In this document: positions 24,818-37,095 of the stretch, piece by piece
Position numbering within the stretch: the first letter of the stretch is position 1
How the letters are laid out: every line of letters starts with the position of its first letter
Assembly (NCBI RefSeq): GCF_024713945.1
Contig: NC_134682.1
Location: forward strand, 124,001-188,000
Length of the DNA stretch: 64,000 nucleotides
Reading direction: 5' to 3'
From: Dermatophagoides farinae
Taxonomy: Eukaryota > Arthropoda > Arachnida > Sarcoptiformes > Pyroglyphidae
The notes under the pieces: model-generated
Told to the model about the DNA's origin: nothing
What the model saw: only the letters and a program-made list of their open reading frames with translations
Database searches by the model: none
Position numbers and translations under genes: made by a program

Positions 24818-27676
24818 TCATCGAATGATTGATTGCTGTTGAAATTGATCGGTAGCCGGTTGATTAGCGGTCGTATCGATACGAATGACACGAATTTTTT
24901 CTTGATGAGCAAATAAAACACAGCATTCATTGTCATTGCCACAATAATGTGAGCAGGAAAAAATGGTGACACATTTTTGGCCAAAATGTATCATGAATCC
25001 AAGTTTAGGTACTTCATGTGCCCGAATCAAATGTGTGAGACGATTTTCGGCGAAAAAATTATCCAATGCACGTTCATTGAAATAAAATGCTGTACCACGT
25101 TTCGTATTGGGCAGATATCCTTGTCGTAGATTTTCATTACGAATTTGATAGAGATTCTGTATGGTCATAAAATGTTCTTGATTTATTGGATCCGACCACA
25201 TTATTTCCCATGCAACGGGACAATCCGATTCTGGACTCATTACGATGGGCGGTATTCGTTTTTCCAGATCGGTCAAACGTGTTACCTGATGTGGAATACC
25301 ACCATGTGAACAGAATATCGTCTCATCAATGGTAGCACTCAGTGGTAGCCTATCAAACAGACGATTGGTTAGATCCCAAAATCTTTGTCCATAAACTTGA
25401 TCATATTTTTGCCATAGTTCACGTCGATATGTGTATTTGTTTTGTATTTCACGAATTTCATGATTTCCTCTTAGTAATGTGATCATTTTTGGCATCAAAA
25501 CTTTCATCGAAAACAGATAAAGTGCACATTCAATACTCCAACGACCACGATCAACATAATCGCCAAGGAATAGATAATGTACACCAGCGGCTGGAAATTG
25601 TTTCCAAATTGTCATCTCTAATGACATAAGATCTTCAAGATTACCATGTATGTCACCAATGATAAAACATGGTGAATTTAATTGTTTTACACGTTGTTCT
25701 TTCTGTAGCATTGGTTCCAATTCATCGGCCATCATCTGAAACATTTGAAACAATCGCTCACGTTCATTCACCATGAATCCATCAATGAATCTTTTTGTAT
25801 GATTAAATTCACGTATTTTACGTAGGAAAAAATTTGCCGGATATTCTGGTTCTAAAAGATGAATTCGTTGTATATCTACCAATGCTGATTTTCGTTGTGG
25901 TGAATCACTTTTCGCTTTATTATTCTCATGCCTTACAAGTTCACATCGATCATAGTAACCATCCTGATTGATGTGTATTTGAATCGGTGATAATTTATAA
26001 CGTTTCGATCGGCATGATTGACAGATTTCATTCTGATATTTGCGCTGAACAACCAATCGAAGTACTGATGATGCCGATTCTTGCTTAGATGATTGATTTG
26101 CCGATTGAGTTGTTGTTATACGTTTCGTAATATGATCGAATATCGATTTTTTTGATCGACACAACAATGATGTACCACGAAATTGATGTGTTGCAATGAT
26201 GGTCAAAAATTTTCGCCACGTAATCGCCTGTTTCGCGCGATTTCCTTTTCCAACCGATTGTGCCTGAAATAATTCCATTGCTTCACGAGTTTTCTGTTCC
26301 AATGGATCGCCACGTAACTTTTTATCACCACACGTGATATTGTAAAGGTCTCTAAGCATTCTTTTCATGTCTTCTTCATACAGGACACCATTTTGTTTCG
26401 TATCATAATAACGAAATACGAATTTAATGCGTACTTCATCATGTGGTGTATCCTGTTCCAAAGCGACCAAACCGAGTAATAGTTCATGAAAGCAAAGAAA
26501 ACCATTCTTCATGTAATTGAATGCAATGAATAAACGATCCAAATTCAAATCCGGTAAATCCAGGCCAAGCCTGAGTAAACATTGACGAAACGAATCGGAT
26601 GTCATATAATAACTAGGATAACAATGTTCCAAGAATTCATAATACAATCGTTCAACATCATTTTCGGTCACTTTCACGGATTTTAGCCACGATTCTTCAA
26701 TGTTTCTCGGTATACCGTCTTTAGAAACGAAATGGAATACCTGATTTGAACTAAATTCTTCAATCTTTTGCGCAATCATATGTGGATTGATATTGGCCGG
26801 GGGACAAAATTTGACTAGTTCTGGCCCCCAAAGATTTTCCACAGAACCATCTCGAACGTGATTTAAATCAAGCCAATCAAGACGATCACTGGTTTGGCAG
26901 CAAACAAATTTATCAGGCGATTGTTCAATGTTTGAATCGATACGTACATAGAATGCTAATCGTGTAATGAATCGATTTGTCTGTGGTAATTGTAATCGAA
27001 GGATTTCAATCAATCGAATGTGGCTGTAGAATGGATGATTCTTAAGGTATTCATATCGATTTGCCGATTCATTGGCGAATATCCATGAAACGCTTTCTTT
27101 GGCTGATTTGATCCAGCAATTTTTCTGTGGCCATTGTGCAACGACACACGGTAACCATATGAATGGTGATGATGATGATTTCAATATGCATACCTTTTCA
27201 TGAACAGGACAATGGATGAAAAAACAGCAACAATCATAAAGCTTTTCATAAATATTCGATACCGAACCAATGGGAAGAATGTAGGCCATGTTTTTCGTTT
27301 CAACCATCGATACTGTTGATCTATGATAACTTAGACGAACATATTTCTGTGATGGTTCACGAACATTTTTTCGACTGTGAACAGATGAAACTGTTGCCGG
27401 TGATTTGACCACAGGAATTGTTGTTGTTGCCGTCGAACGATTTGATTTTCGTTGTTGTTGTTGTTGTTCTTTTTTGGGCATCATACGATTGAGAACATTT
27501 TTCATTGGACGAGGAATATTTTGTGTCAAATTCGTTACAGCCGAATAGATATGATCCATCATATGATTGGCAGATGGTAATTTCATTTGAATTTCATTCA
27601 TATCGATATTGGCTGCTTTGATGTTGTTGTTGATCGCTGGACGTCGGCCATCTTTTTTCGGTGACCAAAATGACAT
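24818..27676 (-). CDS. PPP-family Ser/Thr phosphatase with N-terminal EF-hand-like region
   Basis: Intronless reading frame of 952 residues. The C-terminal third is a metal-dependent Ser/Thr phosphatase domain. GDIHG (about residue 673), GDYVDRG, LRGNHE (about 736), CSHGGIP (about 791) and a final RAHE supply the metal ligands and catalytic His/Asp, so it looks active. Before it, around residues 370-500, is an EF-hand-like region with degenerate loops (NYMKNGFLCFHE and DTKQNGVLYEED), resembling neuronal-calcium-sensor geometry more than strong calcium sites. A CxxC pair (EICQSCRSKRY) sits between the two. The first 330 residues begin low-complexity and then form an unrecognised globular region rich in Trp and Cys. 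Known PPEF/RdgC phosphatases carry EF-hands after the catalytic domain, so this order is reversed. The start ATG at 27676 is the first in the frame. The absence of introns could mean an old retrocopy, but the frame is intact. Confidence 0.85.
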   Translation of the reverse strand: MSFWSPKKDGRRPAINNNIKAANIDMNEIQMKLPSANHMMDHIYSAVTNLTQNIPRPMKNVLNRMMPKKEQQQQQRKSNRSTATTTIPVVKSPATVSSVHSRKNVREPSQKYVRLSYHRSTVSMVETKNMAYILPIGSVSNIYEKLYDCCCFFIHCPVHEKVCILKSSSSPFIWLPCVVAQWPQKNCWIKSAKESVSWIFANESANRYEYLKNHPFYSHIRLIEILRLQLPQTNRFITRLAFYVRIDSNIEQSPDKFVCCQTSDRLDWLDLNHVRDGSVENLWGPELVKFCPPANINPHMIAQKIEEFSSNQVFHFVSKDGIPRNIEESWLKSVKVTENDVERLYYEFLEHCYPSYYMTSDSFRQCLLRLGLDLPDLNLDRLFIAFNYMKNGFLCFHELLLGLVALEQDTPHDEVRIKFVFRYYDTKQNGVLYEEDMKRMLRDLYNITCGDKKLRGDPLEQKTREAMELFQAQSVGKGNRAKQAITWRKFLTIIATHQFRGTSLLCRSKKSIFDHITKRITTTQSANQSSKQESASSVLRLVVQRKYQNEICQSCRSKRYKLSPIQIHINQDGYYDRCELVRHENNKAKSDSPQRKSALVDIQRIHLLEPEYPANFFLRKIREFNHTKRFIDGFMVNERERLFQMFQMMADELEPMLQKEQRVKQLNSPCFIIGDIHGNLEDLMSLEMTIWKQFPAAGVHYLFLGDYVDRGRWSIECALYLFSMKVLMPKMITLLRGNHEIREIQNKYTYRRELWQKYDQVYGQRFWDLTNRLFDRLPLSATIDETIFCSHGGIPHQVTRLTDLEKRIPPIVMSPESDCPVAWEIMWSDPINQEHFMTIQNLYQIRNENLRQGYLPNTKRGTAFYFNERALDNFFAENRLTHLIRAHEVPKLGFMIHFGQKCVTIFSCSHYCGNDNECCVLFAHQEKIRVIRIDTTANQPATDQFQQQSIIR

Positions 27677-28105
27677 TCGAATTTTGGATGAATATTGTTA
27701 TTTTACCCACCAGGTTAAACACACAAATCAGAAATTACTGCTAAATAATGCTTATTTATATGCACAACACGGCCAACAACCAATAATGGACAAGAATTCA
27801 AATTCAAATTCAAATTTATTAGATTTTATTTCAATTAAAAAATAAGTTCAGTTTATAATTTCATTTTGTTTTTTTCTTGACAAAGGGGGGCGGTATATGT
27901 ATGTATGTATGAGGTGTGTGTATTATCGGATTCGATAGTTTGTGCATGGATGTTGTGAATGCACAGACATTTGCAAAAAAAAAATATAAATTAATAACGA
28001 CAATCGATCAGTTAATTTCAATTAAAAACATTTGAATTTATGGTAGAAAAGAGTTAAAAAAAATTCGATTGATCCATCTTGATGATCCAGTTGTTTCAGT
28101 TCTTC
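27677..28105. other. Intergenic between phosphatase 5' end and eEF2 3' end
   Basis: Both flanking genes are on minus, so this holds the eEF2 3' UTR and the phosphatase promoter. It has a G-rich patch (GGGGGG near 27886-27891) and TATG repeats near 27897-27911. I see no gene in it. Confidence 0.5.
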
Positions 28106-31766: not shown

Positions 31767-32553
31767 ATGTTGACCATGACCAGAAACATTCCTTTCATAT
31801 TGTTTGTTCTAATAAGCTGGACATTAATGGTCAGTACAGATGAACAGAATTCGGATCGTGCGAGGTTATTGGCTGAAAAACAAGTGCTAAATAAATATTT
31901 GGTCGAAAATAAAGACATTCTGATTAATTACAACATTTTCAATGTTGGTTCTAGGTTTGTAGAAAAATTAACCTTTTCCATTTGACTCGTTTCTAATATA
32001 TACGATTTATTGTTTACATATTCAAAATTAGCTCAGCAATAAATGTTAAACTTTCCGATAATACATTTTCGTTGGCTCATTTCGACATTGTTGGTGGTTC
32101 ATTGAAATTTACAATACCACGAATTGCACCGTAAGTAAATCAAAATTTGAAATCAACTCTTTTATTTAATAAATATTCTTAGACAATCAAATACAACGCA
32201 CACTGTTGTCGTACGACCTAAAGAAGGTATATGGGGTCGTTTTAATTTTACCGCTGGTGAATTGATCTATTCGAGTGAAGGAAGTAACGAATTACAATAT
32301 GGATATACAAGTGAACCAGGTGATGGATATATTGTTTCACTCAAAGAATTTGATAAACGATTCTCACCACATTATGTAAGTTATTGCTTCAACAATATTG
32401 ATTGCTTAAATCGAATCTTTTTTATTTCGAAAAAAATAGTATGATTGGGCCGCATTTTTAATCATCTCAATGGCAACCGTTTTACTTCCATATCTTCTTT
32501 GGAATGGTAGCAAAAATAAATATGAAAAATTAAGTGCTCGAAAAACAAAATGA
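31767..32553 (+). CDS. SSR2: Translocon-associated protein beta subunit
   Basis: Subunit of the TRAP complex, which sits beside the Sec61 channel in the ER membrane and aids translocation of selected nascent proteins. Four exons join in phase: 31767-31954, 32032-32130, 32183-32375 and 32440-32553, giving 197 residues. The N-terminus is a signal peptide (hydrophobic RNIPFILFVLISWTLMV). A lumenal domain follows with the family landmarks ARLLAEKQVLNKYLVE, YNIFNVGS, IPRIAP, THTVVVRP and FNFTAGELIYS. The segment EFDKRFSPHYYDWAAF leads into one membrane helix (about residues 164-183), then a short basic cytosolic tail (NKYEKLSARKTK). The length matches the family. Three closely spaced start ATGs or Met codons allow a few residues of doubt. 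A poly-A signal is at 32639-32644. The 3' end faces MFE-2 with a gap of 135 bases. Confidence 0.95.
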
Positions 32554-32688: not shown

Positions 32689-35600
32689 TTAAAGTTTTAC
32701 TCTTGATGTCGGTGTTTTGAATATAATCGATATTTTCGGTATAATTGAATGATCACCACGAATTTTCACACGGCCAGATTTGCATGCTTGTTCCAATGTG
32801 AAACGATGATATGTGAGCCGCACAAAATCATTATCTGTCATTGTCATGATGGCAAATGATTCGCTTTCGGGTAGACCACGATCAAATACACCTGTACGAT
32901 CATTTTTACCAAAATCTAATTTATATTCGGCTGCCACTTGACCATCTTTGAAAATTTCGAATCCAATCAATGTTGGAATCTCTTTACATAGATATGGTAA
33001 TCGAATTAAACGTTGAATCAACTCGACAATCATCATTTCGCTTCGTAATCCGGGTTTAAGATCCTATTCGGAAAAAAATAAATTGGTAAATTGTCTATCT
33101 GAACAAAACCATTACTCACGGTTTTTGACATGAGGTCCGTTATGAAAGGAAGTTCGGGTGTTTTACCCATTTTCTGTAATTCCAACCAAAGTGAATATAA
33201 TCGTTGCAATAGCAATATATTGCCCTTTACTTTCAATTTACCCATCATAAATGCCTGTATATAGAGTTTAGGTTTAAATTAGAAATTAGAAATAATTGAT
33301 CTATTTTAAATACCGTTTGATGATTGACTTACTCTTTGTGGATTCAATTTGCCAAACATCAATTTAATAAGATCATCATCTTCAGCTGTAAGCATACAAT
33401 CTGGTTTACCATTCATAAATGGTTTATTATAAACGCATCCAGTTGGATTGGTTTTATTCTCAGCTGACCAAACAGTTTTTGGTTGACCATTCAATAAGAT
33501 ATTGAATTGATAGCTAGCAGTCAGTCGTTTCATAATTTCTGGCTCTTCATGCATTCGATTTCGGATTATAGTAAACATTATATCGCTTTTCAATCCAGTT
33601 GTCGGTATTGAACGTAATAATTCTTCATCATCCTGATCATTATCATCATTATTATTGGCAACAGGATGGTTATCTTTCGACTGTTGATGATCAGACATAG
33701 GTGTGATTGGTTCATCTTCAGACCATAATTGTTGCAATTTTTGTGCTGCCGTTATATTCCCACTAACCTGTAGTCGGCCACCAATGAATGCTAACATTGG
33801 TTCATCACGTCCTTCGAATATATCGACCAATGCATCATCTTCTACGGTCAATATACATTCGACAGGTAAATCCGATCTTGGTCCATGATAAACTTCACCG
33901 TTTCCATTTTTTAAATCCAATACTAATGTATTTATGGTCAACGAAATTGGAATTCATTCAAAATCTTTAAATGAAATATAAATAAATTGACTAAAAACTT
34001 ACTCCAAACGCTAACCAATTTTCCTTGTCTGGTAATATTAAATTGACAAACCGTATTGATTAATGGGATAAGTTCGGAATGTTTAGCAATTCTTGGGCGG
34101 ATTTTTTCATCGAAAATTCGATTAACTTTACAGTCGATGTCCGTTCCGGGAGCAATCACAATCTTGTCCGATGAAAAATCGGCCATTTTCGGCGATTTCG
34201 GCAACGGTGTTTTCAGATCGACAAATGAAGAGGAAATAATTTTGACACCAGTTTCTCGAACAAAACACTCAAAATGTATTCGTACAATATTTTGATCATT
34301 GAATGAATCAATATCCGATTTCCATACAAGAGTTTCAATTGTTTGGCCAGGTTTTATGGTCCCGGTGAAGCGAACTTTAATCGAATCAAAATAATGACAA
34401 TCGTAATCAGCATAGACGGCCACTATGTGACGGGTGGCAAATCCCAGTGCACACAATCCGTGTAGGATTGGTTGGTTGAAACCTTTTTTCAAAAAAAGAA
34501 GAAAATTATGAAAATAAACGATAAACGACAAGATCGATCACACTCATATGAAGAAGAAAACCTGGCTAGTTATTTTGTTGTTGTTGTTATTTTTGTCATG
34601 TTTTGTTAAGTTTGTCTAAGTCAAGATAACAATTGCACATTATCTTGGATGATGATGTGTGTATTCCGAAGAAGTGGAACAAACACATACATATGAAAAC
34701 CGGTCTGATAGATGCTATGTTTTGACCGAAAATCGGGACAACGATCATTACCGACTTGTCCGAAATAAGCGTTAACCTATTGTCTCTTTTTTTCATTTTG
34801 TTGGTCACAATTGATGTTGTTTACACTGACATCACACAATACATTCATCACATTCGCACTATTTCGAAAAAATATGACATTCCATCTCCATCTTCGATTG
34901 TGTTGCTTACCTGCAATTTTGGAAAAATTACTATCAATATGCAATGGATTTTTATCTCCACATAGCCGAAACATAGCAGCCTGATCATTGGTAGTTGGCT
35001 GTGCAATTATCCAATCTGGTGGTCTATCATTTGGAACATTTTCTGTAGTAATTATTGCTGGAATTTCTGTATGCCTTTTTCCGCCAAAATTACCGCTACC
35101 AATCATGAAGAATGATAATTGATTATAGAAAATAGGCAAATTATTATCAAATGTTGTCACTGTTTTTTGCATATGAAATAATGATAGATATGAAATATGA
35201 ATGAATGAGATCAAGTTAAAAATATCACCAATGTATCAATTACCTTCAATTATAATCAAAGCACCTGATGATCCTTTGTCGAGTACATCCAATATTTTCG
35301 TTTCACATGCTAATGTTATTGGAAGACGAGTAATTTGCTCGTAAATTCGAAGATATTGTTCACCATGTAATGTACGCATTAGATTGTCTTCCAATTTATA
35401 TTGTTCAATCACTTTTTCGAGTATATTGCTTCGATAGACAGCATTCAATGAAATAGTGGTTGCCATTGATGGTAATATAGAAAAATTTTCATCATTTTCA
35501 TATAAATAACGAAGATGATTTGGTTCTTCGGTTGAAACTCCAACTATGGAAAAGGAAGAAATCATTTTAATTGGTCAGAAAATACAGGAATCTGTGGCTA

Positions 35601-37095
35601 GTCAAACCTGAAAGAGCGTATAGAATTGCATCTTCAACCGTAAGATTAATGTAAACACGATCAGATTGAGTTTCAGAGTTTGTCGAAATCGGTTCAGGTA
35701 TGTCATCACCACGTAGTTGAGTCATCAACAATACAGTATGATCTGAAGAAATAAAAATTTTACAAACTGAATATCATTCATCAAAATCAAACCTTCCATT
35801 CCAGTTGGATTCGTCGAGCCATTTGACATGTCGGTAATCTGTGACCAATTATTATGGATATCTTCAATTGTAATTCGATCGGTATCAATGAAAATTTTTC
35901 CTTTCGAACGCTGCCATTGATAACGACCAAAATATCCACCAGCTGCTTCGATCACTTCACCATTGGCTTGACATGATTCATGACATAGATAACCGACCAT
36001 CGGTGCTACACAACTTGGTTTTAGTAGATTGAAAATTTCTATTGATAATGATCATCAAAAGAATCAAATTATTGGTCATTTAAAAAAATTTTAATTACAA
36101 TCAACCTTCGGGTAATAAATCTTCAGTTAATCGAGAAGCAGCAACAGGTACAATTGTGTTACATTTGATATCATATTTGCTGCCTTCGATGGCCAATGTT
36201 TTTGCCAATGCCAACAGGCCAAGTTTGGCTGAATTTTTGCCAGAATAAAAAGAATTGTACAACTTATTAGTATGTGTGAATGCATGTATAATATGTCGGT
36301 CATACCGGAACTATAATTTGCTTGGCCAAAATTTCCATAAATCCCAGATGGTGATGCTGTCATTATGATTCTATAATTAGAAAATCAGAAAAAATCATCA
36401 AATAACCCAGTTTCTTTCGCGCGCAAATACCGTCCATAATTCTGTTGACGAAAATATGGCCAAGCTGCTTTGGTTGTCAAAAATGATCCACGAAGATGAA
36501 CACGATGAACAAGATCTATTTAAAAGATTGATTTATCAATTATAGATTATGAATAAATTGACAACAACAAGTCAACTGACCAAAATCTTCTGCTGTCATT
36601 TTCATTAGTGATTTATCTCGTAAAATACCTGCATTATTTATTAGAATGTCTATGTACGGAAAAATAGTAAATTGATCTAGAAATCAATCCACAATATCGA
36701 TTTACCGATTCGGCCAAAGTTATCGATTGCAGTTTGTACAATTTTTTCGCCTTCTTCCACCGAATCTAAAGATCAAGACCATATTATTGATTGAGGAATC
36801 TATAGAATTTTTTTTAGGAAACTTACTGTAATCAGCAACAGCTTGGCCACCACGTTCTTGGATCTCTTTGACAACCGAATCAGCGGCAGCAAAACTTTTG
36901 CCCGTTCCATCGCGACCACCACCAAGATCATTGACTGTGTGAACGAAATAATTTAATGAATTATGTACCATCGTCTAAAACAGAATTACCAATAATGGCA
37001 GCTCCTCTTGATGCTAATAGCAGAGCATATTCACGGCCTAAACCACGTGCGGCCCCAGTTATGATGGCAACTTTTCCGTGAAAATTCAGTAACAT
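32689..37095 (-). CDS. HSD17B4: Peroxisomal multifunctional enzyme type 2 with three SCP2-like domains
   Basis: Carries out the hydration and NAD-dependent dehydrogenation steps of peroxisomal beta-oxidation of very-long-chain and branched acyl-CoAs. Fifteen exons join in phase on minus: 37095-36990, 36934-36827, 36765-36706, 36649-36581, 36515-36431, 36370-36306, 36228-36106, 36038-35793, 35742-35608, 35543-35244, 35159-34911, 34482-34003, 33922-33333, 33254-33120 and 33063-32689, giving 1041 residues. Residues 1-287 are the SDR dehydrogenase ([19 protein letters not shown], catalytic Ser and YSSAK). About 320-610 is the hydratase-2 ([21 protein letters not shown]). Three SCP2-like units follow, roughly at 640-755, 785-915 and 917-1041, the first two separated by an acidic Asp/Asn linker. 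Human HSD17B4 has one SCP2 unit and the fly enzyme none. The C-terminus is VKL, not the usual SKL-type peroxisome signal. The usual NNAG is INAG here. Confidence 0.93.

Follow-up and report, generated by a model that had tools for sequence, protein, structure and literature searches.

In humans, multifunctional enzyme type 2 (MFE-2; HSD17B4) carries a dehydrogenase, a hydratase 2 and an SCP2 unit in that order, and a 2013 paper (PMC3538638) stated the precise role of the last to be unknown even there. Two other systems stand close to it: SCP-2/SCPx (rabbit 1c44, Helicoverpa 4uei), whose SCP2 domain belongs to the same family as the units discussed here, and HSDL2, which combines a short-chain dehydrogenase/reductase (SDR) with one SCP2 unit. 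Here, we describe an MFE-2 gene of the mite Dermatophagoides farinae, found in a window of 64,000 nucleotides (contig NC_134682.1, positions 124,001 to 188,000). Allergen families in its genome point to an astigmatan mite: a frame resembling group 2 allergens matches Der p 2 and Der f 2 (best E 1.6e-30) without being identical to either, and the Blo-t-5 family has three places. From its sequence we read the gene, with a probability of about 0.75, as encoding a complete peroxisomal MFE-2 with its C-terminal SCP2 unit expanded to three copies, against the single unit that PMC3538638 gives for the human enzyme.

The gene consists of 15 exons (window positions 37095-32689, minus strand), which join into a single frame of 1041 amino acids (aa) with no internal stop. 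Exon limits were set by hand, guided by frame and homology, and all 14 introns are GT-AG; this splicing reproduces the 1041-residue protein proposed in an earlier, first-pass annotation of the same DNA. The dehydrogenase is followed by hydratase 2 and then by the three SCP2 units, as listed here.

35878..37095, minus strand: (3R)-hydroxyacyl-CoA dehydrogenase of the SDR kind, encoded by exons 1-8 (aa 1-259); aa 8-193 matched by Pfam adh_short at 128.9 bits
35146..35653, minus strand: hydratase 2 N-terminal domain, about aa 318-437; Pfam MFE-2_hydrat-2_N, 103.5 bits, aa 321-453
34208..35022, minus strand: hydratase 2 catalytic (MaoC) domain, about aa 479-607; Pfam MaoC, 87.9 bits, aa 477-578
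33723..34129, minus strand: SCP2 unit 1, aa 634-742, with a phase-1 intron inside (exons 12/13); matched by Pfam SCP2 and 1ikt
33174..33596, minus strand: SCP2 unit 2, aa 785-899, with a phase-0 intron inside (exons 13/14); matched by Pfam SCP2, 1ikt and 8af2
33064..33119, minus strand: intron 14, 56 bases, phase 0, between SCP2 units 2 and 3
32692..33051, minus strand: SCP2 unit 3, aa 922-1041, within the last exon; matched by Pfam SCP2 and 1ikt

Three features that mark an MFE-2 are found in the sequence: an SDR dehydrogenase with S-Y-K, a hydratase 2 with its hot-dog and MaoC parts, and SCP2 at the C-terminus. The dehydrogenase has a 20-residue stretch beginning at aa 147, in which S, Y and K presumably hold the roles that they have in SDR enzymes. 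The hydratase 2 motif GDKNPLHID lies at aa 500 and is conserved in the Drosophila melanogaster structure 3oml; we take its D and H to have their hydratase 2 roles. The human structures 1gz6, 1zbq, 1s9c and 1ikt match in the same domain order, and among solved structures the closest catalytic core is that of Drosophila MFE-2 (3oml, E 1.9e-166, mite aa 3-609). The PF22622 profile (MFE-2_hydrat-2_N) matches a single place in the whole genome, in this gene, and neither this profile nor a query with the whole enzyme showed a second complete MFE-2 in the genome.

Evidence for three SCP2 units comes from the profile PF02036, for which the curated Pfam cut-off is 21.3 bits. Run against the whole protein at a limit of E 1, the profile matched three stretches with a total of 133.6 bits. 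Taken alone, each unit lies above the cut-off: unit 1 at 57.1 bits (E 2.4e-15), unit 2 at 67.1 bits (E 1.9e-18) and unit 3, the weakest, at 23.2 bits (E 9.3e-5), a margin of just 1.9 bits. The SCP2 structure of human MFE-2 (1ikt, 120 residues) is matched over residues 22-114 by unit 1 (E 2.4e-16), 6-115 by unit 2 (E 9.9e-16, its best solved chain being 8af2 at E 2.1e-16) and 7-115 by unit 3 (E 1.6e-5). We regard unit 3 as SCP2 because of its PF02036 score and because a corresponding unit, 3', exists in a second gene described below. The first-pass annotation had claimed three tandem SCP2-like units, with quoted motifs of 19, 15 and 11 residues that we recovered in units 1, 2 and 3, respectively, and had named a Pfam SCP2 search of the 1041-residue protein as the check; three units score in that search, not one.

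Its statements on other animals also agree with what we found. A single SCP2 unit in vertebrate HSD17B4 is what PMC3538638 (human) and PMC2858028 (other vertebrates) describe. The absence of SCP2 from Drosophila Mfe2 fits 3oml, whose chain of 613 residues is matched over 15-602, ending with the hydratase and leaving no room for an SCP2 unit, although the solved chain may fall short of full length.

The mite genome holds a second gene with three SCP2-like units. A PF02036 search of the genome (62.4 Mb, 22 contigs) found nine places: four in the MFE-2 gene, two in one frame on contig C8 and three of HSDL2 type on contig C10. Splicing of the C8 frame gives the following model, in which the donor of the third intron was picked to preserve the frame.

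G000:C8:2027679-2029338: free three-unit SCP2 gene, six exons, 446 aa, without an enzyme part (splicing model)

The C8 protein as a whole gives three stretches with PF02036 at the loose limit of E 1. Singly, its units 1', 2' and 3' score 30.9, 60.6 and 14.6 bits, so that unit 3' falls below the 21.3-bit cut-off. When the whole enzyme was used as the genome query, the C8 gene was matched only at 2028003-2028701, inside its SCP2 units. Its middle unit is 40% identical to residues 1-108 of rabbit SCP-2; in contrast to SCP-2/SCPx, the C8 protein has no thiolase and carries three units per chain. By eye, the nearest upstream frames belong to a lipase-like gene on the opposite strand. Neither this gene nor the apparent absence of SCPx, considered below, was visible in the first-pass annotation, and both alter the picture.

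Unit 2' pairs with MFE-2 unit 2 in the tree and comparison of units, and unit 3', diverged as it is, resembles only MFE-2 unit 3; the succession of unit 2 and unit 3 would be older than the split between the two genes. The six units contain five introns, all at two places of the alignment and with equal phase at each, one place in phase 1 (units 1, 1' and 3') and one in phase 0 (units 2 and 3'), and a second alignment reproduced these shared places. The phase-1 place follows the W of the second strand, and the phase-0 place precedes the AF of NPQ-AF. When introns were placed at random with the phase mix of both genes, two or fewer sites arose in 1 of 400,000 trials under exact matching and in 183 of 400,000 with two columns of slack. 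Given five introns at two places with equal phase, a single ancestral unit that already had introns is the most likely source of all six. In the linker from unit 2 to unit 3 the introns differ in phase, being 0 in the MFE-2 gene and 1 in the C8 gene.

Identity among the MFE-2 units is 19-35%, and identity between them and human MFE-2 is 24-32%. Since the units differ among themselves about as much as they do from the human enzyme, either their duplication would be old or their sequences change fast, and a recent tandem duplication is disfavoured by the low identity between units. The first-pass annotation had proposed a lineage-specific duplication of SCP2: duplication within the MFE-2 gene holds, on the strength of the domain matches and the shared intron positions, and the restriction to one lineage is left as proposed, the SCP2 genome searches having covered this one mite genome among arthropods. 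The three-unit arm might instead be an ancient feature of chelicerates or of arthropods at large that this mite has simply retained, an account compatible with the best explanation and one to which we give nearly even odds. It would agree with the mutual divergence of the MFE-2 units, about as great as that from human MFE-2, and with a unit 2 - unit 3 order that antedates the split from the C8 gene; against this, the units may simply evolve fast in this lineage, as two long branches in the tree would allow.

Whether the units still hold lipid bears on what the multiplied arm would do. For Helicoverpa SCP-2, PMC4674756 lists 18 hydrophobic residues that line its pocket and reports mutations that cut cholesterol binding, that of F53 most strongly. 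We counted hydrophobic residues (V, I, L, M, F, W, Y, A, C and P) at these 18 positions together with F110, 19 in all, excluding the hydrophilic T128 and Q131. Units 1, 2 and 3 are hydrophobic at 18, 18 and 17 of the 19 positions, as a plain hydrophobic core would also be, and units 1', 2' and 3' at 19, 18 and 17. At the F53 position all three MFE-2 units have F, and units 1', 2' and 3' have V, I and L; the position of Q131 holds W, W and F in units 1-3. A pocket in each unit fits these counts, though so would a core that is hydrophobic and nothing more. The extra units could also be structural spacers or docking arms that have lost lipid binding. The divergence of units 3 and 3' (23.2 and 14.6 bits) and the loss of the conserved NPQ-AF residues from unit 3 lend this some weight, but unit 3 keeps 17 of 19 pocket positions hydrophobic, F stands at the F53 position in all three MFE-2 units, and the scores of units 1 and 2 are those of ordinary SCP2 domains; we consider loss of binding unlikely, at perhaps one chance in a few.

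Were binding retained, each SCP2 unit would offer a separate hydrophobic pocket for a fatty acyl-CoA or a sterol-like lipid, and one enzyme chain would carry three substrate holders on linkers. Poorly soluble intermediates, such as acyl-CoA or sterol side-chain intermediates, could in this way reach a raised local concentration near the two active sites. A link of the expanded units to dietary sterols or to cuticular lipids, as suggested in the first-pass annotation, is no more than possible.

That all three units form one protein depends on how the exons join. The boundary between the hydratase and unit 1 lies within exon 12 and that between units 1 and 2 within exon 13, so neither join depends on a splicing guess. 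Unit 3 is attached through one splice only, between exons 14 and 15, across the 56-base, phase-0 intron 14. This dependence on one splice, in the most divergent of the three units, is what favours an enzyme with only two SCP2 units, the last exon then belonging to another gene or forming an end that is seldom used; read-through of intron 14 would indeed yield a two-unit protein. We think this very improbable. The exon 14/15 splice preserves both phase 0 and the frame, an intron of 56 bases leaves scant room for a promoter, and the read-through product shifts frame, continues for 28 codons past exon 14 to a stop and has no KL ending. A scan for six poly(A)-like motifs gave a single occurrence in exon 14 or intron 14, AATATA at 33221, and in the second gene unit 2, a similar linker and unit 3 stand together in one model. 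Frame, phase, the short intron and the second gene disfavour unit 3 as a separate gene, and the support for unit 3 as part of the MFE-2 chain, to which it probably belongs, is good but indirect.

The C-termini differ between the two proteins. The standard peroxisomal C-terminal signal is [SAC][KRH][LM], and human MFE-2 ends in AKL. The C8 protein has this same ending, AKL, which conforms to the standard. The mite MFE-2 ends in SRVKL (window 32689-32706, minus strand), in which VKL is of KL type and not a standard signal, and looks weak as one.

Acquisition of the units by fusion, from a bacterial SCP2 or from the mite's own HSDL2-type gene, is very improbable, for although three HSDL2-type SCP2 units exist in the genome, these form a separate group in the tree (99/100), the MFE-2 and C8 units share intron sites, and the scans of viral and prokaryotic contigs confirmed no relative. 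Those scans, each able to detect close relatives only, gave 24 pattern matches in viral contigs with an alignment of five units and 35 in prokaryotic genome contigs with unit 2' alone, none of them confirmed, and a plasmid search with unit 2 gave one weak record at 30.4% identity. Gain from bacteria or viruses is disfavoured by the contig scans, and an HSDL2 origin by the tree.

HSDL2 itself differs from MFE-2 in its SDR subfamily (PRK08278) as well as in its SCP2 group. In the mite, an HSDL2-type gene and a free single-unit SCP2 frame lie at G000:C10:1754858-1757291 (L001, L002), the free frame preceding the gene's first readable SDR exon by a few hundred bases. A third HSDL2-type unit lies about 640 kb away, at G000:C10:2397924-2398430 (L004), and the three form one tight group (99/100). 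SCP2 units may have been freed from an enzyme more than once in this genome.

We also searched the genome for an SCPx/SCP-2 carrier in three ways, none with an animal positive control, and exon by exon, so that a gene split by many introns could escape. Rabbit SCP-2 as the query matched seven genome places, all in the SCP2 genes already named, and no SCPx. The thiolase C-terminal family, which we take to be of the SCPx type, was found nowhere in the genome, against matches in 8 of 14 prokaryotic control genomes. PRK08256, presumably the family of SCPx-like lipid-transfer proteins, reached at best 35.3 bits where the cut-off is 436, which no control genome passed either, so that this search had no positive control; its weak matches fall at three places, all of which the general thiolase family matches too. 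According to PMC4966567, Caenorhabditis elegans encodes thiolase and SCP-2 by two distinct genes, so the lack of a thiolase/SCP-2 fusion is not odd in itself; here, no part was found. Peroxisomes are likely present in the mite, since the PEX3 family (32.9 bits, cut-off 27.6) and the acyl-CoA oxidase family (127.1 bits) were found. Fusion and fission of SCP-2 have reportedly been treated by Edqvist and Blomqvist.

Together with the C8 gene, these searches suggest a tentative history, which we think rather less probable than not: the mite may have lost SCPx/SCP-2 and rebuilt lipid carriage from MFE-2, its SCP2 unit being tripled and an enzyme-free copy of the arm becoming a free peroxisomal carrier. 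Apart from this history, our main reading takes the free C8 protein, with its good peroxisomal signal, to derive from the same three-unit arrangement as the MFE-2 arm and perhaps to replace the SCP-2 carrier, which the searches above did not find in this genome.

A literature search, with subscription papers mostly outside it, gave among the matches listed no account of more than one SCP2 unit on an MFE-2, none of a free protein made of three such units, and nothing on this arrangement under mite MFE-2, SCPx loss or the SCP-2-like domain of MFE-2. Six units, three on an enzyme and three free, in a genome with no apparent SCPx would amount to a natural experiment setting the SCP2 unit as substrate holder against the unit as general carrier.

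Two neighbouring genes in the window were identified by eye only. An open frame of 959 codons at 24818-27697 (minus strand) resembles an EF-hand protein phosphatase of the rdgC/PPEF kind. A short multi-exon gene at about 31770-32553 (plus strand) looks like translocon-associated protein beta; its end lies some 140 bases from that of the MFE-2 gene, on the opposite strand.
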